Assembly: GCA_001829495.1 (NCBI GenBank)
Contig: MIBJ01000014.1
Span: forward strand, 1-42,653
DNA: 42,653 bases
Source: Spirochaetes bacterium RBG_16_49_21
GTDB taxonomy: Bacteria; Spirochaetota; UBA4802; UBA5550
Reading direction: 5' to 3'
Positions 7,759 to 38,064 of this stretch are shown one piece after another. The notes under the pieces are model-generated. The model was not told the origin of the DNA, made no database searches, and saw only the letters and a program-made list of their open reading frames with translations. Positions within the stretch are counted from its first letter, which is position 1. Each line of letters opens with the position of its first letter. A program made the translations under genes and the position numbers.

Positions 7759-8010
7759 AATTACCCACATCTTTGAATCAAGTTTCTCGGCCCCCTAAAT
7801 CCCCCGGAGGGGGACTTGACCTCACCCGCGCGCTGCGCACCCTCTCCCATTAAACTCGGAAGAAAGGAGAGGGTTTTCGAAACATTAGGCTTCATCCTTA
7901 GACTCCCCCTCTCCTTTTTTCATTTCTTAATGGGAGAGGGGGCCGGGGGGTGAGGTCGGAAACAGGTTTGGGGGGCATGAGAGAATGATATATGGGCAGT
8001 GGATAACCAG
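7759..8010. repeat. MITE-like element (copy 2, reversed) with a nested inverted-repeat element
   Basis: The left edge (7760-7815) is the reverse complement of the right arm of copy 1, including ATTACCCACATCT. The right edge (about 7965-8010) is the reverse complement of its left arm (GGGGGGCATGAGAGAATGA), with a decayed terminal repeat. Between them, 7818-7957 is a separate inverted-repeat unit: GACCTCACCC / GGGTGAGGTC at its ends and a perfect CCCTCTCCCATTAA / TTAATGGGAGAGGG pair at 7840-7853 and 7927-7940. The junction GGGTGAGGTCAAGTCCCCC occurs again at 25084-25102. This fills the gap between yraN and the next gene. Confidence 0.65.
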
Positions 8011-14181: not shown

Positions 14182-14220
14182 AATACTTCCCCCGCCGCCT
14201 CCGGCGGCGGGGGAAGTATT
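14182..14220. repeat. 39-bp hairpin (18-bp perfect arms)
   Basis: AATACTTCCCCCGCCGCC (14182-14199) pairs perfectly with 14203-14220 around a TCC loop. It stands alone in AT-rich DNA between 13984 and 14275. The arms are unlike the GAAGGCG palindromes elsewhere. It could terminate the radical SAM transcript, or be an independent palindromic repeat. The rest of this gap is AT-rich with no recognisable feature. Confidence 0.7.
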
Positions 14221-15493: not shown

Positions 15494-18400
15494 TTACCGT
15501 TCGGTGCCGAACGCCTCTGCGCATCTTTGAAGAGCAAGCTCGAGCGCCTTGACCAGATGCTCCCTCAGTTCCGCCACTGAAGGGATCGTCCAATCAACCA
15601 GGCCGGATGCAATGCCGTCCCTGCTCGGCCGGGCCTTGTCGAGATAGTTATCGGTGAAGCTCTTCCGGAGCTCTTCAGCCGCGTCCTTTTTGCCCTGATC
15701 CATAAGCCGTCCGTATTTTTTGCCGAAGAGAAGATCGAAGGCGGCATCCACGCCGATGACCGCCATGACGGCCTTCTCAAGCGCCAGATACACGATGCCG
15801 GGCCGTAAGAATTTGTTAAAGGCATGGATAAGCCTGCCGCCGTAATTCTGGCTCAGGAGCACGCTCACCACCGGAATGGTGCCGAGGATATTGACGTCCA
15901 GCGATTCCGCGCCGATGGCCTGGATCCTGAAACGCTCCTGGCAGGATCCCGGCACAAATCCTGACGAGTTTGACAGCATCACGAGCGGAATCCGTTTTCG
16001 GTTCAGGAACTCGGCGAATACCCGGAATTTTTCCGTGCCGAAGGCGTCCGCTCCGCCGCCCTTGATGAGGGGCTGATCCGCTATGACGCCAACGAAGCGG
16101 CCGGCAAGGCCGGCCAGGCCGGTGATCAGGTTCGGGCCGGTCAGAGGGTTGTTCATGTCCCGGTAAAACTCCAGAAACGAATCGGCGTCGAACGCCTTCA
16201 GTATCACCGATTCGATGATCTCATACGGTACCGACGGGTCCGCCGGTATGTCCGGAAGGGCGGCCGGAGCGCTGAATTTTTTTATTGTATCGATGGGATC
16301 GATCATGCGGATGAGCCGGCCGGCAAGGTCAAAAGCCTCGGTGAAGCTCCCGACCGTGAAGGTCGCATTTTTTTCTGCGAGAATCTTCTCGGCGCTCGAT
16401 CCCCCCGCGGTTTTGACATATATGATGACGTCGGCTGCGCTGTTTATGTCGAAGCATTTTAATCCATCCGGATGCGTAATCATATAGATCTTCAGGCCCG
16501 ACTTTTTTTGAACCGTGTTCATGAAATCGAGGTGTGACCGGATCTGGACGCTTTCATGCAAATCCGGAACCTGCTGCCACTTTTTCCCGAAAATGAGTAT
16601 CTGATGGGACGACGTCCGATAGGCCGTTCTCAATATCTCCCGCGCCTTGATGACCGCGGCAAGCGACCGGAGCCCGGACAGGGTGCGGGGTCCCATGATG
16701 AGGACGCGCCTTCCGCCGATTTTGGCAAACCCGCCGATAAGCGTCTCGGCCGCGTAGTAGTCTTCCTTGAAGGGAAGGAAAAATCCGTCATCCACATTGT
16801 TCCGCACCGTGGATTCCGTGAACACGATCGATTCATTCGTTTTTTCCGGGGAAGGCGCACCGAAGGCGGGGTTGCGCAACCCCGCCTTCGGGGTATCTTC
16901 CCCGGAAAAGATTTTATGCACCTGATAGATGCAGGCCGCAAGCTCGATCTTGTCGCCGGCAATGATATCAACGATCCCGGTCCATTTTCCGAGGATCTTG
17001 GCGCCGCCGATATCGTAATTCGTTATATCCTCGCCGATCACCGTATGCACGACTTTTGAGCCGGTGAGCACCCGGTATGATTCCTCCGAGTCGAGCAGAA
17101 TCTGGATCGAGGCCTGGCTTGAGCCGTACACGTCCAATCCGGCGGAGGATCCGATCCCCACGGCAATGAGCTGGAACGACCGGTGCCGGCCGTCGAGCCC
17201 GTCGCTGGAGAGGCCAAATTCCCCGTCCAGCTCCTGAAAGAGCCTGGTGAGTTCCGGATCCGCCGTGTTCGCCGTATAGCGGCGAAAGGTTTCGCCGCTC
17301 GACTTTTCCGTGAGGAGCGCGTTCATCATGAATCCTTGAGCCCCCCTGTTCAGGGAAACGACTCCCTCCATGATGTTCGCGCCGGCGCTGTCGTTCCACA
17401 CGTAGAGCGGCCAGTCGTTCAGGTATGAGAGGTATGCCGCGGCTATATATTTCAAGCCTTCCCTGCTCCCGGTTGACCCGCCGCTGACCCGCGAGTCCTT
17501 CATGTAAAAGCAGGCCGGCGTTCCGTTTATCGCGCCCCGATAGATTTTGGCCGCCACCGGCCTGCTGATAATCTGCAGCGCGCTCGTAGGCTCGGCCCGG
17601 GCATCGTCGATCGACGGGATCCGTATTTCCTTCATCGTGCCCGGATCAAAGCACTCCTGCGCCCATACCTCAATGGGCCACTTGCCTGCGTCGACAAGGC
17701 GCTGATCCGGCAGGTTGACATCCCCCGGCGGATGAAAGGGATTTTTCCGGTCAAAGGGGAGAAGCAGCTCAATGATCACCGCGTCGTTTTTTCGGTGAAA
17801 TAGCACGCTCCTGTTCCTGATCCCCGGTGAATGAGGGTAGGCGACGTCAATGGTTATTATCCCCCTGATGCGGGTCTCTTCCCAGCAGGCGCTGATCGCC
17901 GAGGCGCAGATCTTCTTAAAATCACGATAGTTGATGACCCGGTCGCCCCCTCCATCCCAGGCGAGCGTTGCGCCGAAGACCAGGAGCTCTATCCAGCAGG
18001 TATCGCATGAGCGGATCTTCTGATATATCCGTACGATCTGCGCAGCCCGGGAAAAAACGGATTCTATGGAGCCGGCTGTTCCTGCCTCGGCGCAGGAAAA
18101 GGCGATGTATGATTCTGCGGCGCCTCCAATGGAGTTTAGGCGGTAGACGAGCACGCCTTCATACGGTGAGTGGAGTTTGTGTATCGTGAAATTATTCTCA
18201 AGCTCCGCGAGCCGCTTGCGCACGTGTGTCCCCGCCGGGTCCGGGATCGTCCCGGGGTCGATTGTCAGGTCGGAAGAGGGGGAATGAAGCGATCGCTCAA
18301 ACGGATTGAGCCCTGCCTCATTCCCCGGGCCTGGGGAATCCGCGCTCTGAATGTTTTCCGGATGAGCCTCCTTCAGCGTCTGATTCTGCAGCAGAACAGA

Positions 18401-21343
18401 GCCGTTCAGCGGGAATTTCGACGACAGGATTTTCTTTATGAATTTGAGGAGGGAATCGTCCCGCTCGGCCTGTTCCTGTTCCATGAGCCAGGCGAGCGAT
18501 TGGACGATCTCTTTCCCCGGTTTTTCGATATTTGATATGATCTGAACTATTTTTTTTATGATAGTAGTCCGATCGATGTTGAACTGGTACGATCGCTTGA
18601 GCAGCATGAAGACGTACTGGTGCACCATGCGGCTCATCTCCGACCGGTCCTCCCATCGCAAGACTCCGTATGATTCATACAGCTTTTTGAGCAATGACTC
18701 AAATGATTTTGATCCGGACTGCGCGTTTTCACTGCGGGTCTGCAGGTAGAGGTGCAGTTCTTCCTGGAACGACAGGCCCTCATTACCCACTACCGGCGAG
18801 AATAATCTCTTAATGTCTGCATAGTGCCGGATGATCTTGTTCAGTACCTCAACAACGTCGTCCGCGACCGGGACGGCGGCCGGTATTTTATTCAACGCCT
18901 TCGCGAGGGTTTCGACGATATGCGGCTGATAGATGAACCCCTGCGCCGCAGCGTGGGATAATTCAGAAACTGTTTTGAAGTGCTTTTCAAGGTTTCCCGC
19001 GATCACCTCGTCAAAATTATCATGAAAGATATAATCCAGGGTTGATTCGGGGTTATAGCTCATGCGTCCGTGCGGGTCGGCGCGGGAGCCTTCCGCATGC
19101 AGGTCCTCACGGCCGGCGTCCGTTTCAATGGCCGCCAGGATCTCGTTCTCATGCACGCTCCTGCCGGTGATTCTTACCCTTCCGGGACTCGAGATCAGGA
19201 GCTTCGCGCGCTCCCCCTCCCCGATCAGATAGATGATCTTTCCGCTTACCGGCGCGCTTATGACCGTCTCCATCTTCATCGACGAGAGGATTAAAAGCGG
19301 ATCGCCCGCCGTGACCATAGTTCCGACGCGAAGGTCTTCTTTGCAGAAGGATATGAACGTTCCCTGGAAGGGCGATACTATTTTTTTGATATGCTCCTTG
19401 TCCTCCGCGCCATCGGGCAGGACTTTCATCCGGTAGTAATTGACCTTGTTGAGCTCGTCCCTCATCCTGAGAACGATTAAATTCGCGTGACGGCCCACCC
19501 TGATGCGGTAGGAGCCGTTGCCGAAGATGAGGAGAAAGTCGTCGCAGCGGTCATTGACCGAGGTCAGGATAATGGAGCCGTTGTATGTTCCGTCCACGTA
19601 GGCAAGAAAGGTGTCCATCGCTATTTGCAGAAATTCGACCATGAAGCGCCGGTCGAGGTACTCAAGGGCGTATCTGCATGAAATATTTGATACAGTCGGC
19701 GCGTCGATGATGCTCCCGAGATTGGCGATAACGATAAATTCGTTTATCGCATGCCGGATCATACGCATATGTTCGGCGAAAGCGCCGAACATGATATGTT
19801 TGACGCTGCGGCGGTCGGCTGAAGCGGATCCCCCGGAATCAGGCTCCCGGAAGTTCAGCTCGGGGTGGTCATTGAGCAGGTTGTTGGTGTAGTCTCCCTT
19901 AACGAAGACGGGGTGCCGGACAATGCGCAAAAGCTGGCTTATATTGGTTTTTACGCCGCTGATATATAATTCCTGAAGGGCGCGCTCGAGTCGGATGAGC
20001 GCGTCTTTCCGCGTCGGACCGTGAGCGATAAGCTTTCCGATCATCGGATCGTACATGGGAAGGATCGCGTCCCCCTCGCCGAACCCGAAGTCGCACCGGA
20101 TTCCGTTAAAGGTGGGAAGATCGATCTCGATGATCGTCCCGGGCGAGGGGAGATAGTCGTTCTCCGGCTCCTCGGCATATATGCGGCACTCGATCGAATG
20201 ATCGTTTTCGCCCATGCGGCTTTTGAGAACGTCAAGGCCGACGATCTCGTCTTTCCTTTCGTCATAGTAGAGTATCTGCCATTTGGCTATATCTATGCCG
20301 AGGGATTGGTCCGTGACCGCGTATTCCACTTGGAGCCGGGTGTTCATCTCCATGAATCCGAATCTGCCGGTTTCCGCGTCAAAGAGGAATTCAACGGTGC
20401 CGGCGCCTCCTCCCCTGCCGTAACCGGACACGTGGGCCATCTTTTCCGCGGCGGCCAGGAGCGCCAGGCCGATATAGTCGTCATGGAGGGCGTGTCCGCT
20501 CTCTTCTATGATTTTTTGGTTCCGGCGCTGCACCGCGCATTTGCGTATTCCGATGGCCCGGCCGTTGAAGATCTGGACTTCGATATGGACCGGTTTATTG
20601 ATGAACTTTTCAATATAAAAAGAGGAATCATCATACAGATCCCGGCAGATGCGGGCGGTGGATTCAACGGCGCCGATCAGCTCGGATTCATCGCCCGCAT
20701 GGGAAATCCCCTTTCCCCCGCCGCCGCAGCAGGGCTTGATGATTACCGGATAACCGATTCTCTGCGCCTCTGCCGCCGCCTTCCTTAGCTGATCCGGTAT
20801 TAACGCATGCGAGCTTTCAAACAGGGGGATATCATGCTCCAGGGCGAGCTTCCGGGCGCTCGACTTGTTCCCCACCCTCCGCATGGTTTCATAATCTGGT
20901 CCCATATGGATGATCTCGCGGCCGCAGTTGGCGGATACTGATTCCAGGGCTTCAACAAAGTCCCTGTTCTCGGAGAGGAATCCGTATCCGGAATACACGG
21001 CATTGGCGTTTGCCAGCAGTGCGGCTCCGATAATGACCGGTATGCTGGCATAGTGGTCATCGGCTCCGATGAAAACGACCTCGTCCGCGAATTCATACCA
21101 GGATTGGCCCCGGTCCGGATCGGTCACGACCGCTACCGAGGGTATTCCCTCTTCATGGAGCGCCAGGAAGAACCGCTTCGCGATCTCTCCCCGGTTGGCA
21201 ACCAGCACCTTTTGAAGCCGGTGCGGCCGCGACTTTGTCACTGAAGGGTAATCCGATTTTCTGCTGCCCGAAATGTTCGGATTCAGCGACCGGAGCAGCT
21301 TTTGCGCTTCATCTATTTCCTTTTTGACGCCAGCGTAGTCCAT
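15494..21343 (-). CDS. Single-chain multidomain acetyl-CoA (acyl-CoA) carboxylase
   Basis: 1949 residues. Order: biotin carboxylase (~43-500) with KVLVANRGEIAKRF, the ATP-binding glycine loop KPCCGGGGKG at 203-212, EMNTRLQVEYAVTDQSLGID with catalytic R336; biotin carrier domain with the biotinyl lysine K690 in SSMKME; a long central region (~760-1230); then a two-lobed carboxyltransferase, N-lobe with YVWNDSAGANIMEGVVSLNR and C-lobe with NSSGFVPGSCQERFRIQAIG (~1790). It makes malonyl-CoA from acetyl-CoA, ATP and bicarbonate for fatty acid synthesis. The BC-carrier-central-CT order is that of eukaryotic cytosolic ACC, not the usual four-subunit bacterial enzyme. birA lies five bases upstream. 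About 22 residues (~1479-1501) are encoded by an inserted palindrome. Confidence 0.93.
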   Translation of the reverse strand: MDYAGVKKEIDEAQKLLRSLNPNISGSRKSDYPSVTKSRPHRLQKVLVANRGEIAKRFFLALHEEGIPSVAVVTDPDRGQSWYEFADEVVFIGADDHYASIPVIIGAALLANANAVYSGYGFLSENRDFVEALESVSANCGREIIHMGPDYETMRRVGNKSSARKLALEHDIPLFESSHALIPDQLRKAAAEAQRIGYPVIIKPCCGGGGKGISHAGDESELIGAVESTARICRDLYDDSSFYIEKFINKPVHIEVQIFNGRAIGIRKCAVQRRNQKIIEESGHALHDDYIGLALLAAAEKMAHVSGYGRGGGAGTVEFLFDAETGRFGFMEMNTRLQVEYAVTDQSLGIDIAKWQILYYDERKDEIVGLDVLKSRMGENDHSIECRIYAEEPENDYLPSPGTIIEIDLPTFNGIRCDFGFGEGDAILPMYDPMIGKLIAHGPTRKDALIRLERALQELYISGVKTNISQLLRIVRHPVFVKGDYTNNLLNDHPELNFREPDSGGSASADRRSVKHIMFGAFAEHMRMIRHAINEFIVIANLGSIIDAPTVSNISCRYALEYLDRRFMVEFLQIAMDTFLAYVDGTYNGSIILTSVNDRCDDFLLIFGNGSYRIRVGRHANLIVLRMRDELNKVNYYRMKVLPDGAEDKEHIKKIVSPFQGTFISFCKEDLRVGTMVTAGDPLLILSSMKMETVISAPVSGKIIYLIGEGERAKLLISSPGRVRITGRSVHENEILAAIETDAGREDLHAEGSRADPHGRMSYNPESTLDYIFHDNFDEVIAGNLEKHFKTVSELSHAAAQGFIYQPHIVETLAKALNKIPAAVPVADDVVEVLNKIIRHYADIKRLFSPVVGNEGLSFQEELHLYLQTRSENAQSGSKSFESLLKKLYESYGVLRWEDRSEMSRMVHQYVFMLLKRSYQFNIDRTTIIKKIVQIISNIEKPGKEIVQSLAWLMEQEQAERDDSLLKFIKKILSSKFPLNGSVLLQNQTLKEAHPENIQSADSPGPGNEAGLNPFERSLHSPSSDLTIDPGTIPDPAGTHVRKRLAELENNFTIHKLHSPYEGVLVYRLNSIGGAAESYIAFSCAEAGTAGSIESVFSRAAQIVRIYQKIRSCDTCWIELLVFGATLAWDGGGDRVINYRDFKKICASAISACWEETRIRGIITIDVAYPHSPGIRNRSVLFHRKNDAVIIELLLPFDRKNPFHPPGDVNLPDQRLVDAGKWPIEVWAQECFDPGTMKEIRIPSIDDARAEPTSALQIISRPVAAKIYRGAINGTPACFYMKDSRVSGGSTGSREGLKYIAAAYLSYLNDWPLYVWNDSAGANIMEGVVSLNRGAQGFMMNALLTEKSSGETFRRYTANTADPELTRLFQELDGEFGLSSDGLDGRHRSFQLIAVGIGSSAGLDVYGSSQASIQILLDSEESYRVLTGSKVVHTVIGEDITNYDIGGAKILGKWTGIVDIIAGDKIELAACIYQVHKIFSGEDTPKAGLRNPAFGAPSPEKTNESIVFTESTVRNNVDDGFFLPFKEDYYAAETLIGGFAKIGGRRVLIMGPRTLSGLRSLAAVIKAREILRTAYRTSSHQILIFGKKWQQVPDLHESVQIRSHLDFMNTVQKKSGLKIYMITHPDGLKCFDINSAADVIIYVKTAGGSSAEKILAEKNATFTVGSFTEAFDLAGRLIRMIDPIDTIKKFSAPAALPDIPADPSVPYEIIESVILKAFDADSFLEFYRDMNNPLTGPNLITGLAGLAGRFVGVIADQPLIKGGGADAFGTEKFRVFAEFLNRKRIPLVMLSNSSGFVPGSCQERFRIQAIGAESLDVNILGTIPVVSVLLSQNYGGRLIHAFNKFLRPGIVYLALEKAVMAVIGVDAAFDLLFGKKYGRLMDQGKKDAAEELRKSFTDNYLDKARPSRDGIASGLVDWTIPSVAELREHLVKALELALQRCAEAFGTER
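16842..16909. repeat. GAAGGCG palindromic element inserted in frame in the carboxylase gene
   Basis: Core 16861-16890 is a perfect 30-bp palindrome (CGAAGGCGGGGTTGC and its complement). It is flanked by perfect 13-bp outer arms TTTTCCGGGGAAG (16842-16854) and its complement (16897-16909). Total 68 bp. It is read through by the carboxylase as FSGEDTPKAGLRNPAFG APSPEK, which looks like a linker. The core recurs at 28411-28466, 29112-29141 and 38009-38064. Confidence 0.85.
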
Positions 21344-26004: not shown

Positions 26005-26025
26005 AAAATCTCCTCTGTACCTATA

Positions 26026-26138
26026 CTCCCTCCCCCTTGACGGGGGAGGGTTGGGGTGGGGGTGATGAATTTACAGCAATCAAATAATCTTTACTCCTCA
26101 TTCACCCTCCCCTCACCCCTCCCATCAAGGGAGGGGAA
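26026..26138. repeat. CCCTCCCC-type inverted element (copy 1)
   Basis: Left arm CTCCCTCCCCCTTGACGGGG and GAGGGTTGGGGTGGGGGTGA; right arm TCACCCTCCCCTCACCCCTC and CCATCAAGGGAGGGGAA. Related units are at 29190-29284 and, reversed, at 33093-33182. It lies between the glycyl-radical ORF and the large nrdD gene. Confidence 0.65.
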
Positions 26139-26182
26139 TGTTTTAATTAAAAATCGCTTAGCTCAATCTCTCCATATCGGCA

Positions 26183-28216: not shown

Positions 28217-28410
28217 GTAAAAACTCCGGGGTTGCGGTGATTTCTGCATGTACAAAATTAAAATACGATCCGCCCGTAACCGGATGCGGTTACCGCTACA
28301 GGTATGGGAAACCTAATGAGACATAATACTTGAAAAATAGTACAACTACGTGTACGGCGCAATATAAAAAAAGTCAATAAAATTATGTCTCTTTGAAAAA
28401 AATATAGAAA

Positions 28411-28466
28411 ATATGCTCCGCACCGAAGGCGAGGACGCACGTCCTCGCCTTCGGTACGGAGCATAT
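28411..28466. repeat. GAAGGCG palindromic element (56 bp)
   Basis: 27-bp arms (ATATGCTCCG..., 28411-28437 with 28440-28466) pair with a single mismatch around CA. The inner part CCGAAGGCGAGGACG matches the family core; the outer ATATGCTCCG arms are unique to this site. It lies between the divergent nrdD and 28546 genes. Upstream of nrdD there is also a small stem, GTAACCG/CGGTTAC, at about 28276-28294. Confidence 0.85.
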
Positions 28467-28545
28467 TTAAATGTATTTTCCGGCCATCTTTCCCGATATA
28501 ATATAATGGAATATACCAGATGTCATGTTATTAAGGAGATCTGCG

Positions 28546-29067
28546 ATGAAAAAGGCAATGATTGCTGCGGGTATTATACTTTTTCTGGTGACGCTGACGG
28601 TTTCTAAAGGCAATACCCGGCTAAAATCCACCGTGATCGATACCATCAAGATTACCAGCAGTGACCTGCCTGCGGGCTTTACGTTCGGCAAGGTTCCGGA
28701 GGTATATAAAAAGACGCTCAAGGATAATCCATGGATGATGGACAAGGATGCAATAAAGCGGCTTGCCGATAAAATTTATCCGGGCGGAGATTACCATAAA
28801 ATTGAAAGCATGTATGTAACCATCATAGCGGCCAAGCAGAGACCTTACGGTGATGACATAGTCTGCTATTTGATCCTGTTCAAGGACGATAAATCCACGA
28901 GGGACGAAATCAAAAAGGTGGCCGAATTTACCGGTTTCAACAGCGACCGGTGCATAGTTCTCACCAAAGATAACCTCGCTGTTTTTCTTTTTGTCGACGA
29001 TATCAATAATTTTCACTATATCAGAGACATGGCGGTGACCATGGAAGAAAGGATAAAAAATTTATAG
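28546..29067 (+). CDS. Secreted protein of unknown function
   Basis: 173 residues. The start at 28546 has AAGGAG seven bases upstream. A signal peptide is likely (KKAMIAAGIILFLVTLTVSK). The mature part reads DLPAGFTFGKVPEVYKKTLK, YVTIIAAKQRPYGDDIVCYL and DNLAVFLFVDDINNFHYIRD, an alternating beta/alpha pattern with no motif I recognise. No lipobox. It stands alone between palindromic elements. Confidence 0.75.
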   Translation: MKKAMIAAGIILFLVTLTVSKGNTRLKSTVIDTIKITSSDLPAGFTFGKVPEVYKKTLKDNPWMMDKDAIKRLADKIYPGGDYHKIESMYVTIIAAKQRPYGDDIVCYLILFKDDKSTRDEIKKVAEFTGFNSDRCIVLTKDNLAVFLFVDDINNFHYIRDMAVTMEERIKNL

Positions 29068-29111
29068 CCCGACCGCTTGACGATCGGATAAATTGCTTTT
29101 ATTTTTATATT

Positions 29112-29141
29112 AGAAGGCGAGGATGCGCATCCTCGCCTTCT
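29112..29141. repeat. GAAGGCG palindromic element (30 bp, perfect)
   Basis: AGAAGGCGAGGATGC and its exact complement, with no loop. Only the core is present; outer arms are missing. It lies 45 bases past a stop codon. No T-run follows immediately, but it might still act as a transcription end. Confidence 0.85.
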
Positions 29142-29189
29142 GGTCGATTTCCTTTCCTGTTGCTTTTAATCCTTGCATTTATTTAATAA

Positions 29190-29284
29190 CTCCCTCCCCC
29201 TAGATGGGGGAGGGCCGGGGTGGGGGTGAAAAGGGATTTGCCGCGTAATCACCCTCCCCTCACCCCTCCCATCAAGGGAGGGGA
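29190..29284. repeat. CCCTCCCC-type inverted element (copy 2)
   Basis: CTCCCTCCCCCTAGATGGGG ... AATCACCCTCCCCTCACCCC ... TCAAGGGAGGGGA, the same arms as copy 1 with a shorter centre. Upstream of clpB. Confidence 0.65.
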
Positions 29285-29369
29285 ATAAGATCGTTCCCGT
29301 GTTCCTTTATCTTGCACATAGGGATACAGGAAGAAGAGATCTACATTTTATATTTGGAGCCCCTATGCA

Positions 29370-31952
29370 ATGAGGATGGATAAGCTGACCTTGAAGGCGC
29401 AGAATGCCGTCAATACGGCGCAGAATATCGCGACGGACATGAATCATTACGAGATACAGCCGGAGCATCTGCTGCTGTCGCTCATCGACCAGGAGGGGGG
29501 CATTTTCGGCTCCATAGCGCAGAAGATCGGCGCTTCCGTCCCTGATCTGAGAAACGAGGCGGACGCGGCAGTCAAGTCTCTCCCCCGCCAGGTGGGAGCC
29601 GGACCGGGCGGCGGCGCGCTCTCATCCTCACTGCGGGATATCCTGAACGAGGCCTGGAACGAGGCGGTGGCCCTTAAGGACGATTACCTGAGCACCGAAC
29701 ACATGATCCTTGCCCTTTCATCCAAGGGAAGCGGCAAGGCCCGGAAGATCTTAAACGAGCACGGTTTTATCCGGGATAACATCATCAAGGTGCTGAAAGA
29801 CATCCGCGGAAGCAAGCGGGCCGACGACGAAAACGCGGAGGAAAAATACAACGCCCTCGAGCGGTACAGCAGGGACCTGACCAAGCTCGCGCGCCTGAAC
29901 AAGCTCGACCCGGTGATAGGCAGAAACGAGGAGATACGTCGAGTAATGCAGGTGCTCACCCGGCGCACCAAGAACAACCCGGTGCTCATCGGCGAGCCGG
30001 GCGTCGGCAAGACCGCGATCGTGGAGGGGCTCGCGCGTCGCATAGTGGAGGGCGACGTGCCGGAAAATTTGAAAAACAAGCGCCTGGTCGCCCTGGACAT
30101 GGGCGCGCTCATAGCCGGCGCAAAGTACCGCGGCGAATTCGAGGAGCGGCTTAAGGCAGTGATCAACGAGGTTGAGGAATCGGCGGGCGACGTGATGCTC
30201 TTCATCGACGAGCTTCACACCCTGGTGGGGGCCGGGGCGGCCGAGGGTGCGGTGGACGCCTCCAACATGCTCAAGCCGGCGCTTGCGCGCGGCGATCTTC
30301 GCTGCATCGGCGCCACGACCCTGAACGAGTACCAGAAATATATCGAGAAGGACAAGGCTCTGGAGCGCCGGTTCCAGCCGGTCTTTACCAAGGAGCCGTC
30401 CGTGGAGGACACCATCGCGATCCTGCGCGGCCTCAAGGAGAAATATGAGGTCCATCACGGGGTGAGGATATCCGACTCCGCCTGCGTGGCCGCGGGGGTT
30501 CTGTCCGATCGGTATATAACCGACCGGTTTTTGCCCGACAAGGCGATCGACCTGATCGATGAGGCGGCCTCGCGCATTAAAATGGAGATCGATTCAATGC
30601 CGATCGAGATCGACGAGATCGAGCGGAAGATCCGCCAGCTCATGATCGAGACCGAGGCGCTTAAAAAGGAGAAGGACAAGGCGTCCAAAGAGCGGCTCGA
30701 TAAAATAAAAGAGATGCTCGCAAACCTGAACGAGAAGAAGAACACGCTGGTGGCGCAGTGGAGGAACGAGAAGGGGGTCATCACCGAGATACGCAGGATC
30801 AAGGAGCAGATCGACCAGCTCCGCACCGAGGAGCAGCGCGCCGAGCGCGCGGGGAATCTGAACCTGGTAGCCGAAATCCGTTACGGCAGGATAGCGGAGC
30901 TTGAGAAGAAGCTCACGGCGGCGAACGACAGGCTCAAATCGATGCAGGGCGGCAAGACCCTTCTTAAAGAAGAGGTGACCGAGCAGGAGATCGCCTCAGT
31001 CGTGTCGCGCTGGACCGGAATCCCGGTTTCCCGGATGCTGGAAGGCGAGAAGGAGAAGCTTCTCAGGATGGAATCGATCATCGAGAAGAGGGTCGTAGGC
31101 CAGCGTGAGGCCATAACCGCCATTTCAGACGCAGTCCGGCGCTCCCGCTCCGGCATTCAGGACCCGGACCGTCCCATCGGGTCGTTCATATTCCTGGGCC
31201 CCACCGGCGTGGGCAAGACCGAGACCGCAAAGGCGGTGGCCGAGTTCATGTTCAACGACGAAAAGGCCATCATCAGAATAGACATGTCGGAGTACATGGA
31301 AAAGCATTCAGTGTCCCGGCTCATAGGCGCGCCTCCCGGGTACGTGGGATACGAAGAAGGGGGACAGCTGACCGAGGCGGTGCGGCGCCGGCCCTATGCG
31401 GTCATTCTCTTTGACGAGATCGAGAAGGCGCACGGCGACGTGTTCAATATCTTTTTACAAATCCTTGACGAGGGGAGGCTTACCGATTCCAAGGGCAGGC
31501 TCGTGGATTTCAAGAATTGCCTCATCGTCATGACGTCGAACATCGGCACATCATATATCAGCGACGCCTCGATCCCGTATGAGGAGCGGCGCCGGGGCGT
31601 GGAGCAGGAGCTCAAGCTTCACTTCAAGCCCGAGTTCCTGAACCGGGTGGACGAGGTCATCATTTTCAATCCGCTCTCGCGCGAGAATATCATGGAGATC
31701 GTGAAGCTCCAGCTTCATGAGGTTGCTTCCCGGCTCAGGGAGCGGGGCGTTTCGCTCGAGCTTACCAAGCGCGCCCTTGATTTTCTGGCTCATGAAGGAT
31801 ATGACCCGCAGTTCGGAGCCCGTCCCCTGAAGCGCGGAATCCAGAAGCACCTCCTGAATCCGCTGTCCGTGCAGCTTCTCTCCGGCGAGGCGCTTCCGGA
31901 GCACAAGATCAAGGTCGATTCGGACGGGAAGAAAGTAATTTTCGGCAAATAA
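29370..31952 (+). CDS. clpB: Chaperone ClpB (disaggregase)
   Basis: 860 residues, full length. N-terminal Clp repeat domain ([20 protein letters not shown]); first AAA+ module with Walker A GEPGVGKT and Walker [19 protein letters not shown]; a coiled-coil middle domain (~410-525, [20 protein letters not shown]), which marks ClpB rather than ClpA/C; second AAA+ module with [16 protein letters not shown] and [11 protein letters not shown]; no ClpP-binding IGF loop seen. It pulls proteins out of aggregates with DnaK. The start could be the ATG at 29370 or two codons later. No CIRCE or clear heat-shock promoter is visible upstream. Confidence 0.96.
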
Positions 31953-32087
31953 TCAAAAAAAGAATGGATTTTACTTTTTTTATTTTGTAATTTTGAAGAT
32001 ATTTGGCGGATTTGTTGCAAAATTCAAGAATCATGATTTTGCAATAAATTTAGTCTTCGATTAAACACGATTTTGGGAGGACTTATA

Positions 32088-33083
32088 ATGAAAAAAATAT
32101 TATATAGAGGCATCCTTTCGGCTGCACTGCTCGTGGCGCTCGCCGCTCATAAGGCGAATGCATGGATTATTTTTAACAGCAGTTTCGGCACACCCGCATC
32201 GCAGCAGGCGTTGAACGATGCATTGCTAAAGTATCAACACCAGGCAAAACTGGTGAAGGGATTCGCCAACGCGAGCGCGTATTCTTCGCACACGGCAACG
32301 CAGCGGGGATTTCAGGGATACGATAAATTCGCCATCACCCTGGGTACCATGGCCGGCGCGCAGGTGCCGGCCACCACGTCGAACCTGTCCTATTATAAGC
32401 ATCTTGCCGATAAGCTCAATAAGCAGGGAGACGTGTATGTGGGCCTGGCATGGAACGCCTGGGCGCTCAACGTAGGAGTGAAGCTTCCCGCGGACCTGTA
32501 CCTGTCGGGAAAATTCGGAAAGCTGAAATACTCTTACCAGGAGTATGATTTCGACGGCACCAACACCGGCTTCATGATCAATTACCAGGTCATCAAACCG
32601 GTGTCGCCGCCGGTCAAGATCATCCTGTGGCGGGGCATCTCCATCGGTACCGGCTTTCTCTGGCAGTACAACAAAACCGCCTATAATTATAAGGCGGGCT
32701 CCATAACCTCGGGCCCGTTTCTCATTAAACCCAATATGAAAATTTTTTCCCGGAGCGAATCGTACGTCATTCCGGTGGAGGTATCGACTGCGCTCCGCCT
32801 TTTCTGGTTCCTCAATCTCCATGCAGGCGGCGGCATCGACTTCGCTCTGGGATCATCGCGGCTGAATTATTCAGGTACCGGCCTTGTCATCAATACCGCA
32901 GGCCCGAGTATCGGCTTATACACGCTATACGGAAGGCAGGGCGGCACCGGACCGACCAACTTTTTGCCAAAGATATTTTGCGGCCCGGGCTTAAGCCTGG
33001 GACCGGTCATTATCGACATTCCCTTCACCTATTACTTTAACGACGGCTTTAACGTCGGCGTTACCGTGGGCGTAGTGTGGTGA
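32088..33083 (+). CDS. Probable outer-membrane beta-barrel protein
   Basis: 331 residues. GGGAGGACTTATA precedes the ATG. A classical signal peptide ends ALAAHKANA|W (about residue 25). The mature protein is rich in Gly, Tyr and alternating hydrophobic strands (LYLSGKFGKLKYSYQEYDF, ISIGTGFLWQYNKTAYNYK, LSLGPVIIDIPFTYYFNDGF) and ends VGVTVGVVW, with a terminal aromatic residue, as outer-membrane barrels do. Family not recognised. It is the gene before an AsmA-like protein, with a repeat element in between. Confidence 0.72.
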   Translation: MKKILYRGILSAALLVALAAHKANAWIIFNSSFGTPASQQALNDALLKYQHQAKLVKGFANASAYSSHTATQRGFQGYDKFAITLGTMAGAQVPATTSNLSYYKHLADKLNKQGDVYVGLAWNAWALNVGVKLPADLYLSGKFGKLKYSYQEYDFDGTNTGFMINYQVIKPVSPPVKIILWRGISIGTGFLWQYNKTAYNYKAGSITSGPFLIKPNMKIFSRSESYVIPVEVSTALRLFWFLNLHAGGGIDFALGSSRLNYSGTGLVINTAGPSIGLYTLYGRQGGTGPTNFLPKIFCGPGLSLGPVIIDIPFTYYFNDGFNVGVTVGVVW

Positions 33084-33092
33084 TTAAAGTAG

Positions 33093-33182
33093 TTCCCCTC
33101 CCTTGATGGGAGGGGCAAGGGGAGGGTGAGCTTTGGCATACAGAATAATCCACCCCAGCCCTCCCCCATCAAGGGGGAGGGA
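33093..33182. repeat. CCCTCCCC-type inverted element (copy 3, reversed)
   Basis: TTCCCCTCCCTTGATGGGAG, GGGGAGGGTGAG ... CCACCCCAGCCCTCCCCCAT and CAAGGGGGAGGGAG. Arms as in the copies at 26.0 and 29.2 kb but in the other direction. Confidence 0.65.
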
Positions 33183-33259
33183 GAAAAAGAATTTAACCAA
33201 ATTAGCTTATATCGAGTAATTACATAAACAAAATTTCTGATATAAAGGAGAAGCGCAAA

Positions 33260-34705
33260 ATGGGGAAAAAGCTTGTAAAGATTTTTGGCGGCATACTGGC
33301 GGTTATCGTCCTACTGGTCATTATAGCGAGTGTTGCACTGATCCTTATCGTGAATAAAGGGATGGTTGAGAATCAGATGGAGAAGGCCCTGAGCAGGCGC
33401 GTGCAAATAGAAAAGATCAGAGTGGGCATATTCTCGATAGTTTCGGGAATTGAGGTGAAGAACGTAAAAATCTCGAATTTCAAGACTGAAAAGCAGCTTG
33501 CGATGCTCAAGGGAAAGCCGGTTCCCCCGGGCGATATCTTCGTCAGCATGGAAGCATTGCGGCTGAAGTTTCGTCTCATGCAGCTTCTGAGGAAAAAGTT
33601 CGAGCTTACGGAACTTGTTATGTACGCCCCGTTCGTCAATGTGACGAAGAGCAGGGATGGCGTGTTCAATTTCGACGATCTCCTTCGTCCGAAAAAGCTG
33701 ACGAAGGAGGAACGGGAGGCGCTTGAGAAAAAGAAGGCCGCGGAAGCAGCCAAGCCGAAAAAGCCGTTTACCGCGGATGATCTGCCGGTGGCGGTCACGG
33801 TCGGCGAGCTGGGCATAAAGAACGGGAGCGTCAACTATTACGACGGCAAGCTCGACCAGAGATTCAAGGTTTATAAGCTCACCGCGCTCGTTTATGACAT
33901 ACGGATCGATCCAAAAAATTTGGAGAAGAATGATGACGTCAAGGTAAAGATATACATGGCGATTCAGTCAGTCGGCCCGGTTAAAACCGGAAGCGTCAAG
34001 TCGTTCGACATTACCTTTGACGTAACCGGGAACGTGAAGCCTTTCGACCTTAAGACCCGGAAACTCGATCCGGAGGCACGGCTCCACGCCGGGTCGCCCG
34101 AGGGGCAGTTTACCGGGCTTCAGATCTTCAACACCATGGCGGCCGACACCGTCCTGACCAAATATATCGGGGATCAGCTTTCCTTTCTGAAAGGGAAACA
34201 GGAGTGGAAGGGCTCCAAAGCCGCCTCCGTGGATATATGGTATAAGGCTGATCGTGCAAAGCTTTCCAACGGCAATCTCAGTATCAAGGATGCGAGCCTT
34301 CTGTTCGCCGGCACCGTCAATACCGCCACCACGGCTCTTGACGCCGACCTGGACCTGGAGCTGAGCAAGGCCCGTAACAGCGCGGTCATGGCCGGCATCA
34401 GGAAACAGGTGGAATCCGGCCTGAAGCGCCTCGGCGTGAAGAAATACGCAAATCCGGAAAAGATAGCTGAAACGGCGTCGAAGCCGCTTGTCAATGACCG
34501 CGGGATGATATATATGAAGTTCAAGGTTACCGGCACCATGAGCAAACCGGATTCAAAGCTCGTTCATCCTTCGCTCGGCTCGCTTGACGCCGTCATCAAG
34601 CAGGTTGTCGGGAATGTCCTGATCGAAGCCGGCAAGGAAGAGGGCAAGAAGGCGGTTGAAAAGGAAGGCAAGAAGCTGATTAAAAAACTGCCGAAGCTGT
34701 TTTAG
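33260..34705 (+). CDS. AsmA-like inner-membrane-anchored protein
   Basis: 481 residues. One N-terminal membrane segment (KIFGGILAVIVLLVIIASVA) anchors a periplasmic part. The following region, QMEKALSRRVQIEKIRVGIF and EVKNVKISNF ... VSMEALRLKFRLMQLLRKKF ... ELTELVMYAPFVNVTKSRDG, is the typical start of the AsmA/TamB superfamily, thought to bridge lipids between the membranes. A Lys/Glu-rich linker (about 145-170) and a more variable C-terminal half follow, ending in a Lys-rich tail. AAGGAGAAG precedes the ATG. Its stop overlaps the convergent hydrolase gene by four bases. Confidence 0.78.
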   Translation: MGKKLVKIFGGILAVIVLLVIIASVALILIVNKGMVENQMEKALSRRVQIEKIRVGIFSIVSGIEVKNVKISNFKTEKQLAMLKGKPVPPGDIFVSMEALRLKFRLMQLLRKKFELTELVMYAPFVNVTKSRDGVFNFDDLLRPKKLTKEEREALEKKKAAEAAKPKKPFTADDLPVAVTVGELGIKNGSVNYYDGKLDQRFKVYKLTALVYDIRIDPKNLEKNDDVKVKIYMAIQSVGPVKTGSVKSFDITFDVTGNVKPFDLKTRKLDPEARLHAGSPEGQFTGLQIFNTMAADTVLTKYIGDQLSFLKGKQEWKGSKAASVDIWYKADRAKLSNGNLSIKDASLLFAGTVNTATTALDADLDLELSKARNSAVMAGIRKQVESGLKRLGVKKYANPEKIAETASKPLVNDRGMIYMKFKVTGTMSKPDSKLVHPSLGSLDAVIKQVVGNVLIEAGKEEGKKAVEKEGKKLIKKLPKLF

Positions 34706-35451
34706 AACATCTGCAGCCACGACACGATTTCATGGCGCAGCACCTCTATATCGGAATCCCGGGTAAGGCTATGATCGCCGCCTTCTATGATGATTTTTTT
34801 CAGGGGATACGTAAGATATTTTTCCAGCAGATCAACGTTCGCAGGATCAACCACCGCGTCCCTGCCTCCATGGATAGCCATGACCGGGACCGTAATTTTT
34901 TTGAGCGCCTCAGCCATGGCGATTGCGCTGATTTCCCTGAAAAATGTATTGTTGATCGCCGTATTTTCAATTGTCGTGGATCCGTTTTCGGGAAGCGAAT
35001 CGATATCGGTAACCCCGGCATCGGAAAGGAAGATTTGTTTTATGTCAACCGGCGCGGCGATCAGGATCAGGGACGCGACGGTTTTGCCGTGCCGGGAGGC
35101 GTAGATAAGGGTGACGAGAGCGCCCATGCTGGAGCCCATCAGGTGGATTGTTTTAGCACCCCGGCGCCGTGCATATTCCACGGCGCATGCAAGATCGTTC
35201 GCCTCTTGCAGTATTGACAATTCCGAGATGCTGCCGCCCGATTCTCCGGAAAAGGAAAAATCGAAGGTCAAAAGCATTTGGCCCGTTGCCGCAATATCCT
35301 TTGCGAGCCTGGTTATTTTATATCCGTCCTTATTTGAGAAGAGTCCGTGGCTGAACACGACCCCGGAATCCGGCGCTCCTCCTGTTTTATAGATTCTTCC
35401 GGCAAGACGCTGCTTCAGGTTATTGTAAAATTCAATGTCTTCGACGATCAT
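34702..35451 (-). CDS. Alpha/beta hydrolase
   Basis: 249 residues. The nucleophile elbow GSSMG is at 106-110 (S108); HG at 35-36 forms the oxyanion region; MAIHGGRDAVVDP supplies the acid and EGGDHSLTRDSD the His. The fold is that of small serine esterases/peptidases of the dienelactone hydrolase-like group. The substrate is unknown. No signal peptide, so cytoplasmic. The start overlaps the upstream gene's stop as TAATG. Confidence 0.88.
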   Translation of the reverse strand: MIVEDIEFYNNLKQRLAGRIYKTGGAPDSGVVFSHGLFSNKDGYKITRLAKDIAATGQMLLTFDFSFSGESGGSISELSILQEANDLACAVEYARRRGAKTIHLMGSSMGALVTLIYASRHGKTVASLILIAAPVDIKQIFLSDAGVTDIDSLPENGSTTIENTAINNTFFREISAIAMAEALKKITVPVMAIHGGRDAVVDPANVDLLEKYLTYPLKKIIIEGGDHSLTRDSDIEVLRHEIVSWLQMF

Positions 35452-35984
35452 TACGGCTCTTTTGCAAGCTTTATGCTGGGTTCAAAATATCCGTCGGAAT
35501 TGTTACCGTCGATTACGATGGCGCGCGGCTGGAGGTTCAGGGCGGCCCTGTTGTTTTTTTTGACTCTATATCCGGCAAAAAGAAAGTATGACGATTTCGC
35601 CTTCATGAATCCTTTGTACAGGTTGAGCGCGGTAACCCGGGGCTCGTCTTTCATCTCTGAGATGTTTATTCTTAATTTATTCTCGTCGTTTATCGTGTAC
35701 ACCCCCCTGAATATCAGAGCCTGCGTGTTCAGGTAGATGATGACGAGTGCGCGGTAGTTTGGAGACAGGCTGAAGTAGTAGCCGTAGTTTCCGGAATATT
35801 TCAACCGCCAGTTGCCGATGACGTTCTTAAAGGACAGGGGTACTTCGGCATCCTCTTCCGACGATTGTCCGGATTTTCCCAAGGGGGGATTTTTTTTCTT
35901 CTGATTATTCGCTGAACTCGAGGAGGTGTTAATGCAAAATATAAACAGAGACGCCAGCACTATTATTGAAATGATCTTTTCCAT
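35451..35984 (-). CDS. Small exported protein of unknown function
   Basis: 177 residues. An N-terminal hydrophobic segment (IISIIVLASLFIFC) looks like a signal peptide; the Cys at its end could be a loose spirochaete-style lipidation site, but Phe before it is unusual. A Ser/Asn/Lys-rich linker follows, then a beta-rich domain with IGNWRLKYSGNYGYYFSLSP and LIFRGVYTINDENKLRINIS, recalling lipocalin-like 'I-G-x-W' stress or copper-resistance domains; this is only a resemblance. Coupled to the hydrolase gene. Confidence 0.7.
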   Translation of the reverse strand: MEKIISIIVLASLFIFCINTSSSSANNQKKKNPPLGKSGQSSEEDAEVPLSFKNVIGNWRLKYSGNYGYYFSLSPNYRALVIIYLNTQALIFRGVYTINDENKLRINISEMKDEPRVTALNLYKGFMKAKSSYFLFAGYRVKKNNRAALNLQPRAIVIDGNNSDGYFEPSIKLAKEP

Positions 35985-36072
35985 TCGGAGATTATGCGAG
36001 GCGGAGCTTTGGATTGTAAAGAAAAAATTCCGATGAACCGTTAAAAATTCCGGGATAAATATCGATCATGCC

Positions 36073-36101
36073 TTGACTCAAAAACGGGATTGCTATATAT
36101 T
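36073..36101 (+). promoter_or_regulatory. Promoter of ssrA
   Basis: TTGACT (36073-36078), 17-bp spacer, TATATT (36096-36101), with tmRNA starting 10 bases later. This is a near-consensus sigma70-type promoter, the best in the window. Confidence 0.85.
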
Positions 36102-36110
36102 GTACGTGCA

Positions 36111-36464
36111 GGGGACGATTTTGGTTTCGACTGCGATAGCGGTTTTACAGCTGCATGCCGAGTGCGCTGGCAACTCGTAAAAAATGGCAGGCTTAAACAT
36201 ACGTGCAAACAATAATCTTGCACTGGCAGCTTAATTAACTGTCACGTCTTTAGGCCGTTTGCTCCTCTGGGACATCTAAAGGCGTCATATACAGGGGATA
36301 GCCCGATTCTCCCGCCCCGGGGAAGAAGGCGAATCAATACGGGGCTCGGATGTTCATAACGGCGCCTTTTCCCGGTGGGACATTCTAAATAAAATGAAAA
36401 GGATAAGCATGTAGAGGTTGTAGGGCTGGATTGTAGGACGCGGGTTCGACTCCCGCCGTCTCCA
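36111..36464 (+). ncRNA. ssrA: Transfer-messenger RNA
   Basis: The 5' end GGGGACGATTTTGGTTTCGA and the 3' end GGGTTCGACTCCCGCCGTCT are the conserved tmRNA termini. The acceptor arms GGGGACG and CGTCTCC pair with a G-U at the third position, the alanine identity element, followed by A36464; CCA is not encoded. The resume codon GCA is at 36205 and the tag reads ANNNLALAA with TAA at 36232-36234. The tag's LALAA end is the usual ClpXP degron. tmRNA rescues stalled ribosomes. About 354 nt, a normal length. Confidence 0.97.
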
Positions 36465-36472
36465 CATATTAT

Positions 36473-37105
36473 TTATATTTCTTCAGAATAGTCCATCTTT
36501 ATCATTAATTCCACAAATCTATTACTCATCTGATCGAGCAGATTTTCTTTTAAAAATTGGCTGTCGATTTCGTACACATTGTAGGTGTCGAACTGATGAT
36601 CCATGTATAAAATCTGATATTTGGCGTTGAGTATCACGATCATCGAGCTGAAATTGATAACCTGCATCTCGGATGAGAGAAAGCTGTCAACTTCGTATAT
36701 GATGAAGCTGTCGAGGCCATATTCATTTTGAATTTTCTCAATCTCATCTTTGTTTTTTGTTATATAATTTGTAATAATTCCCACGGCTTGATTGTATTGG
36801 AAATCGCCGTCAATCGAGAATTGCAAAAAACGGTCGTACTCTCCTTTTGATATTGTCAGATTTTCAGGCGCGGCTTCGATAATTTTAAGATTGTTGATCT
36901 TTTTATATGGCTGAAGCCAGTTAGTGAGGCTTTCAGTTAATCTTTCAACGGGGATAGGGCTGTTGTGGGGTATGCGGAACAATATTCCGCTGTTCTTCAA
37001 TTGGGACAGGCCGGATCCTTCTCTTATTTCCCTGGTCACATGGAAGTGCGAGCAGGATAGGGCGAGCATGATCGCGCAGACCATAATGCTATGTTTTTTG
37101 ATCAT
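36473..37105 (-). CDS. Putative lipoprotein of unknown function
   Basis: 210 residues. The start at 37105 overlaps the previous gene's stop as ATGA. Signal peptide MIKKHSIMVCAIMLALSCSH with a lipobox-like LALSC (C18), so probably lipidated. The mature part reads LKNSGILFRIPHNSPIPVER, YDRFLQFSIDGDFQYNQAVG and VINFSSMIVILNAKYQILYM; I do not recognise the family. Low in G+C compared with most of the window. It faces tmRNA, ending 8 bases from it. Confidence 0.72.
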   Translation of the reverse strand: MIKKHSIMVCAIMLALSCSHFHVTREIREGSGLSQLKNSGILFRIPHNSPIPVERLTESLTNWLQPYKKINNLKIIEAAPENLTISKGEYDRFLQFSIDGDFQYNQAVGIITNYITKNKDEIEKIQNEYGLDSFIIYEVDSFLSSEMQVINFSSMIVILNAKYQILYMDHQFDTYNVYEIDSQFLKENLLDQMSNRFVELMIKMDYSEEI

Positions 37106-37923
37106 AGGACTAAATTCAGTATTTTTCTTCCTACATCGGTCACTGCTATGCACACCGGAGCATGCGCGGTACCATCCGTATAAAGGATCATATTAAAGTG
37201 CTTCAGCCAGGTGAAAAAATAAAAATCAAGGAATGATATCATGATCAGATCATTGCAGCAGGCGAACCCGGTCATGTCGAAAAATTCATTGGCGACCCGG
37301 TCTAATCTTGTTTTTCCATAATTTTTAAGGATGAGATCCTTTAAAATGTTTCTGTTTATTTTTAATTCCCTGGCGGAATCAACATCTGACGGGAATATGA
37401 TTTCCCAGTCCGCCTTGTCCCAGAAGGCAGTGAAAAGCCTGAAATATACGCTGTTTCCGGAAATTCCGGCGTCGCTTATCATCGCATATCCGCCGCTCTG
37501 CCTTAAAATTCCGCTCAGCCGCAACAGGTGCAGGCATTGTTTGGTATATATGATGAACAGCTCATGGTCGTCAATTGTATCCAGCAACTGATCTTCAGAT
37601 GCCTTATTCATGCATTGATTATAAAATTTTTTTTTGAAACATCCGCTCTTGGTGACCGGAAATCTGCCTTTTGATATAACATCAATCAAAAGGAGCGCGA
37701 GACGGACTGCGAAACAGCCGTTTAATTCGATATCTGTTCCATTTTCGCGAGAATTGCCCAGTATGTTATAATACCGGCTGATTGATTCTACGGTAACGAT
37801 GCTTTGGAAGCGGTCTGTCTGGATTTTCTGGTTCTGGAAACACTCTCGGGTAAGCGTGGAATTATTATTTGATTGTGCAATTTCTATGGATTGATCTGAT
37901 TTTTTCTCTCGAGTGGTTTTCAT
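37102..37923 (-). CDS. Unknown cytoplasmic protein, possible winged-helix type
   Basis: 273 residues. A polar N-terminus (~45 residues) is followed by a helical protein: FAVRLALLLIDVISKGRFPV, TKSGCFKKKFYNQCMNK, LFIIYTKQCLHLLRLSGILR and QSGGYAMISDAG. The 'K-G-x-x-P-x-T-K-x-G' and 'L-x-L-L-R-x-S-G-I-L-R-x-x-G-G' pattern resembles winged-helix-like repeats in uncharacterised proteins, but I cannot name a family. Translationally coupled to the lipoprotein gene (ATGA), so the two likely work together. Confidence 0.7.
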   Translation of the reverse strand: MKTTREKKSDQSIEIAQSNNNSTLTRECFQNQKIQTDRFQSIVTVESISRYYNILGNSRENGTDIELNGCFAVRLALLLIDVISKGRFPVTKSGCFKKKFYNQCMNKASEDQLLDTIDDHELFIIYTKQCLHLLRLSGILRQSGGYAMISDAGISGNSVYFRLFTAFWDKADWEIIFPSDVDSARELKINRNILKDLILKNYGKTRLDRVANEFFDMTGFACCNDLIMISFLDFYFFTWLKHFNMILYTDGTAHAPVCIAVTDVGRKILNLVL

Positions 37924-38008
37924 TTATTCTAAATTATTTCACTTAAACTATGCAAAATCACAGCATGAACTCTTATAGATATTATCAGAATTTACAGGTG
38001 AGCGGATT

Positions 38009-38064
38009 ATTAGATTTGCTGTGAAGGCGGGGATGCGCATCCCCGCCTTCACAGCAAATCTAAT
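38009..38064. repeat. GAAGGCG palindromic element (56 bp, perfect)
   Basis: Two 28-bp arms pair without mismatch or loop. Inner part GTGAAGGCGGGGATGC is the family core; the outer ATTAGATTTGCT arms are unique to this site. It lies in the 278-bp gap between two genes. The rest of that gap (38065-38201) has a CCGCC/GGCGG stem at about 38140-38161 and nothing else clear. Confidence 0.9.

Follow-up and report, generated by a model that had tools for sequence, protein, structure and literature searches.

Rickettsia palindromic elements are palindromes kept in frame inside coding sequences, and quasipalindrome mutagenesis in Escherichia coli is reportedly template-switch mutation at hairpins. Both bear on a 28–30 bp palindrome, GAAGGCGRGG-N8-CCYCGCCTTC (the core), which occurs four times in the stretch of DNA analyzed here, a 42,653-nucleotide contig of Spirochaetes bacterium RBG_16_49_21 (assembly GCA_001829495.1, contig MIBJ01000014.1, positions 1 to 42,653), referred to in full as the window. 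Around many copies of this core, the flanking sequences pair with each other as outer arms that differ from site to site. Our leading explanation, to which we give about an even chance, is that the arms are reverse-complement copies of one flank, made when replication switches template at the hairpin of the palindrome.

Single template switches that yield perfect stems have been described (Monttinen and Loytynoja 2022, PMC8794818). They resemble the arms reported here in that a perfect reverse-complement copy arises beside its source in one event, and in double changes that keep pairing. In the parts of that paper drawn on here, the known cases are single loci in RNA genes, whereas the present arms are many and surround a dispersed bacterial palindrome family. 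Some REPs are reported to lie inside palindromes that fit a shared consensus and whose targets are empty in one of the three species compared (PMC3733652). As covered in part by that source, REP/REPIN elements and the GTAG and CGTC superfamilies are likewise dispersed palindromes of 20–40 bp, a few families of which lie inside palindromes. In contrast, the present core has no GTAG or CGTC tag and no linked RAYT, it is loopless and perfect, and its outer palindrome is site-specific rather than of one consensus. In Volvox organelle DNA, palindromic elements are inserted into one another (PMC2670323). This palindrome-in-palindrome arrangement is similar, but the nested parts, in the portion of the Volvox account used here, are family members, whereas most of the long arms described below are unique local sequence. 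No earlier report of locus-specific arms around a dispersed bacterial repeat was found among the titles and abstract openings of the open-licence literature, which is weak evidence. Template switching itself is already known; its dispersed-palindrome setting looks new.

The core family and its outer arms

The source genome (G000; 3.80 Mb in 83 contigs) contains 54 exact copies of the core. When up to three mismatches are allowed and the centre is partly fixed, 74 forward and 72 reverse matches are found, as opposed to 0 forward and 1 reverse for a reversed control pattern in the same search. With the N8 centre free, 14 of the 46 genomes examined in the order have the pattern, including all six of the genus, and the control pattern is found in none of the 46. 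The exact counts in the five congeners, denoted G001–G005, are 3, 6, 2, 15, and 6. The core is further matched exactly on contigs of metagenome-assembled genomes of Margulisbacteria, Peribacteraceae, and Geobacter; viral contigs contain 0 exact matches, by which a virus-borne core was rejected. The window itself has 22 core-like matches, compared with 10.1 ± 3.0 in shuffled sequence. The core ends are YGAAGG..CCTTCR, in which the terminal pair is T/A in 44 and C/G in 16 of 78 copies, and the palindromes fold strongly as RNA (z-scores of −5.7 to −13.1).

The original prediction had located four palindromes sharing the core in the window, and all four are present at those positions. It also assigned site-specific outer arms of 10–13 bp to three of them; the arms are indeed there, and the pairing reaches further, with 16/20, 15/16, and 14/14 positions paired at sites 1, 2, and 4, respectively. 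Across the family, arms were scored at 78 copies read with some kilobases of flank (68 from the source genome, 7 on G004 loci, and 3 on G005). This set omits some diverged copies and cores with indels beyond the search rule, at least two of which also have arms (L071 and L056:4001; L-numbers denote fetched loci). One of the 78 copies meets N on one side and is scored as armless, and the outermost pair (Y..R) of the 30-bp element is counted in both the arm scores and the control. Perfect pairing flush with the core extends over at least 6 bp in 33 of 78 copies, compared with 0.47% when left and right flanks are mixed between sites, and over at least 10 bp in 22 of 78 (0.27% in the same control). 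Arms of at least 6 bp are found in 28 of the 68 copies from the source genome and in 5 of the 10 from G004 and G005 together. The other 45 copies have arms shorter than 6 bp, and 27 of the 78 show only 0–1 bp of flank pairing. Short or missing arms in over half of the copies are a point beyond the original prediction, which had named copies with non-complementary flanks as a sign of coincidence. Such copies are common, yet the armed ones are too many for chance.

The register of the pairing is equally informative. In a 12-nt ungapped test with a threshold of 10 paired positions, 25 of the 78 sites qualify at offset 0; a shift of 1–6 nt to either side leaves none. A search allowing bulges in the 45 other copies yielded six with an arm of at least 6 (2.2 expected), of which four are clear: sites 1 and 2 and L031 are in register, and a 1-nt bulge is present at L067. 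The core is thus the centre of the pairing, and almost nothing resembles a split loop. Since ordinary looped-hairpin targets should leave unpaired, often off-centre remains of the loop, pairing at offset 0 favours copying. Among arms of score at least 7, 32 of 35 are without mismatch, so that the trait of the described template switches, an arm that is the perfect reverse complement of its source and lies in register with it, is found here as well. Outside the subfamily of repeat hairpins described below, arm lengths are broadly distributed over 7–20 bp, whereas chance palindromes drop fourfold per bp. Mismatched cores are rarer among armed than armless copies (1/35 and 10/43, p=0.019); any break in the core palindrome occurs in 8/35 and 17/43, a difference that is not significant (p=0.15).

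Long palindromes of this kind are scarce away from the core. In 494 kb of the source genome, a non-random sample consisting of the stretches around cores, 37 core-free palindromes with a loop of 0–1 and arms of at least 9 were listed. By reading, nearly all core-free examples with arms of at least 13 belong to repeat families; L072:3924 is clearly unique and L038:15207 arguably so. Cores with unique arms of at least 13 number 11, including site 1 and L071 and excluding two with GTAG-like arms. Of the nine besides site 1 and L071, eight lack a second full-length arm copy within one mismatch in the 494 kb, and site 4 has one. When the ACCCTCTCC subfamily and a nested core are set aside, 11 of 12 arms of at least 13 bp lack a full-length second copy within one mismatch in the 494 kb, and the twelfth, at site 4, has one. 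Because chance does not yield long loopless palindromes and nearly none exist without the core, some arm-making process is needed in any case.

The same junctions in related species

The congeners are mostly 65–85% identical in matched stretches, and the intergenic alignments are consequently weak. At site 4, both sides are conserved in G001, G003, G004, and G005, where 22, 22, 19, and 22 nt, respectively, separate the conserved blocks, compared with 34 nt plus the core in the source genome. The surplus is approximately one 14-nt arm besides the core, and none of the four congeners has a hairpin there beyond shuffled expectation. At L072, which has 20-bp arms, neither arm nor any hairpin is present in the five congeners. 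They have 28–30 nt in place of 118, a gain of 88–90 nt, and the target stretch is present twice as diverged direct repeats. The armless site 3 is empty in G001–G004 with a net gain of about 25–28 nt by eye, and the last TTC of its core may be derived from the target. The region of site 1 is unalignable among the six species, and the right-hand side of site 2 gives no alignment to the congeners. A MITE would leave a target-site duplication on insertion; by eye, none accompanies site 3 relative to its four empty congeners, CG is doubled at the nested site L038:16899, and direct repeats are seen at L034, L072, and a Peribacteraceae copy (L226).

At one junction, the core is shared by G004 and G002 (L086:4001 and L245), with arms GATATTTC/GAAATATC and GATATGCT/AACATATC. 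Two pairs are changed on both sides with pairing kept, and one mismatch is present. These double changes may reflect either RNA-hairpin selection or templated repair, between which a single species pair cannot tell. At another gene junction (L084:4001, L069:11954, and L249–L252), two species have the core, a third has a core-like hairpin, and the remaining species have other hairpins, some of them imperfect. As judged from these comparisons, turnover of hairpins at gene ends seems frequent.

Explanations for the arms

From the direct observations on the family, its register, the controls, and the empty sites, we infer a snap-back during replication. After the core has been copied, the nascent strand would fold back on itself, extend along its own upstream flank for 7–20 nt, and then return to the template, by which a palindrome with unrelated flanks would be turned into a longer one. 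If the core primes such a copy, the resulting arms would be perfect, vary in length, and lie in register. Pairing of the arms could subsequently be maintained by further template switches or by selection on an RNA hairpin. Repeated copies of one core arm lie beside the core at L058:4001-4047, L061:4004, L069:6397-6490, and L076:4824; these one-arm duplicates look like switch scars and would fit repeated slipping or switching at the hairpin. The original prediction had offered two routes, namely inverted copying of a flank and entry of the element at the tip of an existing hairpin. The first gains from the empty, hairpin-free sites at site 4 (4/4) and L072 (5/5) and from the gain of the core plus one arm at site 4, and the second is also realized, in one core nested within another and in six cores inside ACCCTCTCC..GGAGAGGGT hairpins. 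The base composition of the arms (52% G+C, compared with 36% just outside and 45% in armless flanks, p=0.04) is compatible with either route.

Several observations weigh against copying as the source of the arms. The 45 copies with arms under 6 bp are one. The empty-site comparison, which was to reveal either a single native arm or a hairpin, agreed with a one-arm gain in length at site 4; L072 shows neither arm in the congeners, and no gain beyond the core is seen at L043 (8-bp arms, four congeners) or L052 (one congener). Ancestor scoring at site 4 gives 49.9 for both arms native, 49.9 for the right arm native, and 45.1 for the left; scoring by global alignment shows no preference at L043 and L069. 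One arm is favoured at L072 (35 vs 26), yet the gain there exceeds one arm. At most sites the native arm is not identifiable from the alignment score. Furthermore, some congeners carry different hairpins, in excess of shuffled expectation, at the corresponding junctions of L063 (2/3), L044 (2/2), and L089 (2/3), and at L084 in one of four congeners by the perfect-arm test and in two more by eye, as insertion at the tips of terminators would predict. Finally, hairpin centres do serve as insertion sites, which accounts for the core-in-core nesting, and the argument from scarcity would lose force if insertion preferred long palindromes that extrude easily.

The strong rival is therefore insertion at the tip, in which the core enters the centre of pre-existing palindromes or hairpins and prefers long, cruciform-extruding ones; we regard this as possible but doubtful as the origin of the arms. 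A plain case of such insertion is L038:16899, where one core lies within another and shares its exact centre (GAAGGCGAGGATGCG-T[core]A-CGCATCCTCGCCTTC); the junction carries a doubled CG, and the site of the outer core is empty in all five congeners. At L049, a core with 5-bp arms lies within an apparent older, half-kept core. The GCGCACCCTCTCC repeat, which forms the ACCCTCTCC..GGAGAGGGT hairpin, has 13 copies listed in the stretches read, six with the core at the tip, and a GTAGAGACG palindrome occupies the tip of a ACCCTCTCC hairpin at L067. Some REPs likewise lie inside palindromes whose targets are empty in T. roseum, according to part of the published account (Di Nocera et al., PMC3733652), and the congener hairpins at L063, L044, L089, and L084 share the junction of the core. 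However, the seven core-free copies of the ACCCTCTCC..GGAGAGGGT hairpin have loops or other centres in place of the core, and their loops, of 18 nt and 5 nt for example, are missing from the core-bearing copies. The 12-nt test detects no off-centre pairing, the stretches read contain next to no long, loopless, unique palindromes that are unoccupied, and the congeners are hairpin-free at site 4 (4/4), L072 (5/5), and L043 (4/4). The cases of insertion at a centre have recognizable outer families, and most long arms elsewhere do not.

It is unlikely that the arms were built up after insertion by ordinary mutation, with selection favouring a longer stem for a transcription terminator. Seventeen of the 78 copies lie between convergent open reading frames (ORFs, taken stop to stop), the double changes at L086/L245 keep pairing, and the hairpins fold strongly as RNA. 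The convergent setting is not enriched among armed copies, as 7 of the 17 are armed and 10 armless, and the T-run that follows the stem of an intrinsic terminator is generally missing: TTTT in the 10 nt behind the stem, or AAAA ahead of it, occurs in 4 of 28 armed and 3 of 41 other sites. The arms are mostly perfect in copies with near-consensus cores, and 20 perfect pairs are hardly to be expected from stepwise selection in young copies. Transfer of the arms from donor to target within one larger mobile unit is very improbable and was rejected, as the long arms are unique (11 of 12 of those of at least 13 bp lack a second copy; shorter arms are unjudgeable by copy search), except for the six ACCCTCTCC-type composites, which have outer sequence in common and could have spread together; the arms of these composites have 7–13 other matches. 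Coincidental complementarity of the flanks, which the 45 copies with short arms would suit, has a practically negligible probability and was rejected by the mixed-flank control (33/78 vs 0.47%).

The window, other palindromes, and implications

The features of the window are collected in Table 1. The four mismatches in the arms of site 1 are all close to the core. The site 1 palindrome is kept in frame and codes for part of ..SGEDTPKAGLRNPAFGAPSPEK.. in a carboxylase/carboxyltransferase ORF with Pfam matches PF00289, PF02786, PF02785, PF00364, and PF01039. It is the sole coding case read here and resembles the Rickettsia elements in being in frame, although its sequence differs. The whole palindrome of site 2 spans 28409-28468. 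That of site 4 spans 38009-38064 and consists of 28+28 nt that are 100% complementary and loop-free, with 14 nt per side beyond the core. A known RNA family was rejected by an Rfam scan at gathering thresholds over window positions 14000-38600, in which no palindrome was matched; the one match in this range is the tmRNA gene (RF00023, 36111-36467, + strand). Repeats of the CCCTCACCCC/CCCTCTCCC type, with many more copies in the source genome and its congeners, lie at 26024-26166, 29177-29293, and 33083-33225, and a 650-aa ORF at 38202-40154 (− strand) fuses a methyltransferase domain to a D-Ala-D-Ala-ligase-like ATP-grasp domain.

Table 1. Palindromes, outer arms, and host ORF in the window (positions in nucleotides).
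Feature	Positions	Strand	Length	Remarks
Core-free ACCCTCTCC..GGAGAGGGT repeat hairpin	7839..7874			Paralogue of the core-holding hairpins
GC hairpin CCCCGCCGCC..GGCGGCGGGG	14182..14220			Unrelated to the core; own arms AATACTTC/GAAGTATT
Site 1 host ORF	15494..21343	-	1949 aa	Biotin carboxylase, biotinyl, and carboxyltransferase domains
Site 1 left outer arm	16842..16861		20 nt	16/20 pair with 16890-16909, unbroken register
Site 1 core palindrome GAAGGCGGGGTTGC/GCAACCCCGCCTTC	16862..16889			In frame inside ORF 15494-21343
Site 1 right outer arm	16890..16909			Pairs with left arm
Site 2 left outer arm	28409..28424		16 nt	One mismatch
Site 2 core palindrome	28425..28452			Centre GACGCACGTC
Site 2 right outer arm	28453..28468			
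Site 3 core without outer arms	29112..29141			Orthologous positions empty in G001–G004
Site 4 left outer arm	38009..38022		14 nt	Perfect
Site 4 core palindrome	38023..38050			
Site 4 right outer arm	38051..38064		14 nt	

The original prediction pointed to an IS200/IS605- or RAYT-type transposase as a possible mover of the core. Four such Y1_Tnp genes, IS200/IS605-type and RAYT-like, are present in the source genome, and none is near the core: in the 4.5–4.7 kb around each of the four, no core palindrome lies within approximately 2 kb, by which a RAYT-linked REP was rejected. Lone half-arm matches with at most one mismatch occur around three of the four genes, and one gene has an AT-rich 27-nt palindrome just upstream that is unlike the core (L229). 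No transposase tied to the core was found in this search, which covered Y1_Tnp only. The GTAG tetranucleotide and the CGTC tag are absent from the core ends.

Arms are also found around other palindrome families, for which the samples are small (n=10, 2, and 9). In the stretches read, 4 of 10 GTAG..CTAC elements have arms of at least 6 bp (control, 0). These four include the L067 element, which lies within the ACCCTCTCC hairpin, and the longest arms, 23 bp and perfect, belong to the GTAGGGGCGGGG..CCCCGCCCCTAC element at L038:18370 (L038:18347-18421). One of two GTTARCG..CGYTAAC elements has locus-specific arms (control, 0). In the GC-rich hairpin family CCCCGCCGCC-NNN-GGCGGCGGGG, further copies of which lie at L232:22-66, L055:9999-10059, and L069:270-304, 8 of 9 copies have arms of at least 4 bp (control, 4%), mostly AT-rich and different at each site. 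The occurrence of arms around several palindrome families shifts the cause from one transposition mechanism to a property that strong hairpins may share. We tentatively propose, with somewhat less than even confidence, that dispersed palindromes act as seeds around which replication snap-back grows unique, perfectly paired arms in unrelated families, thereby minting new hairpins.

If copying by template switch is correct, each dispersed palindrome would be a natural replicate of one template-switch experiment, with dozens of replicates in one genome, and the copy length, direction, and failure rate of switching would be readable from sequence. Complementary flanks around a repeat would then need not imply a hairpin target, nor would double changes in a stem need to imply selection on RNA. 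The origin of long perfect hairpins and of palindrome-in-palindrome nesting would thereby be explained.

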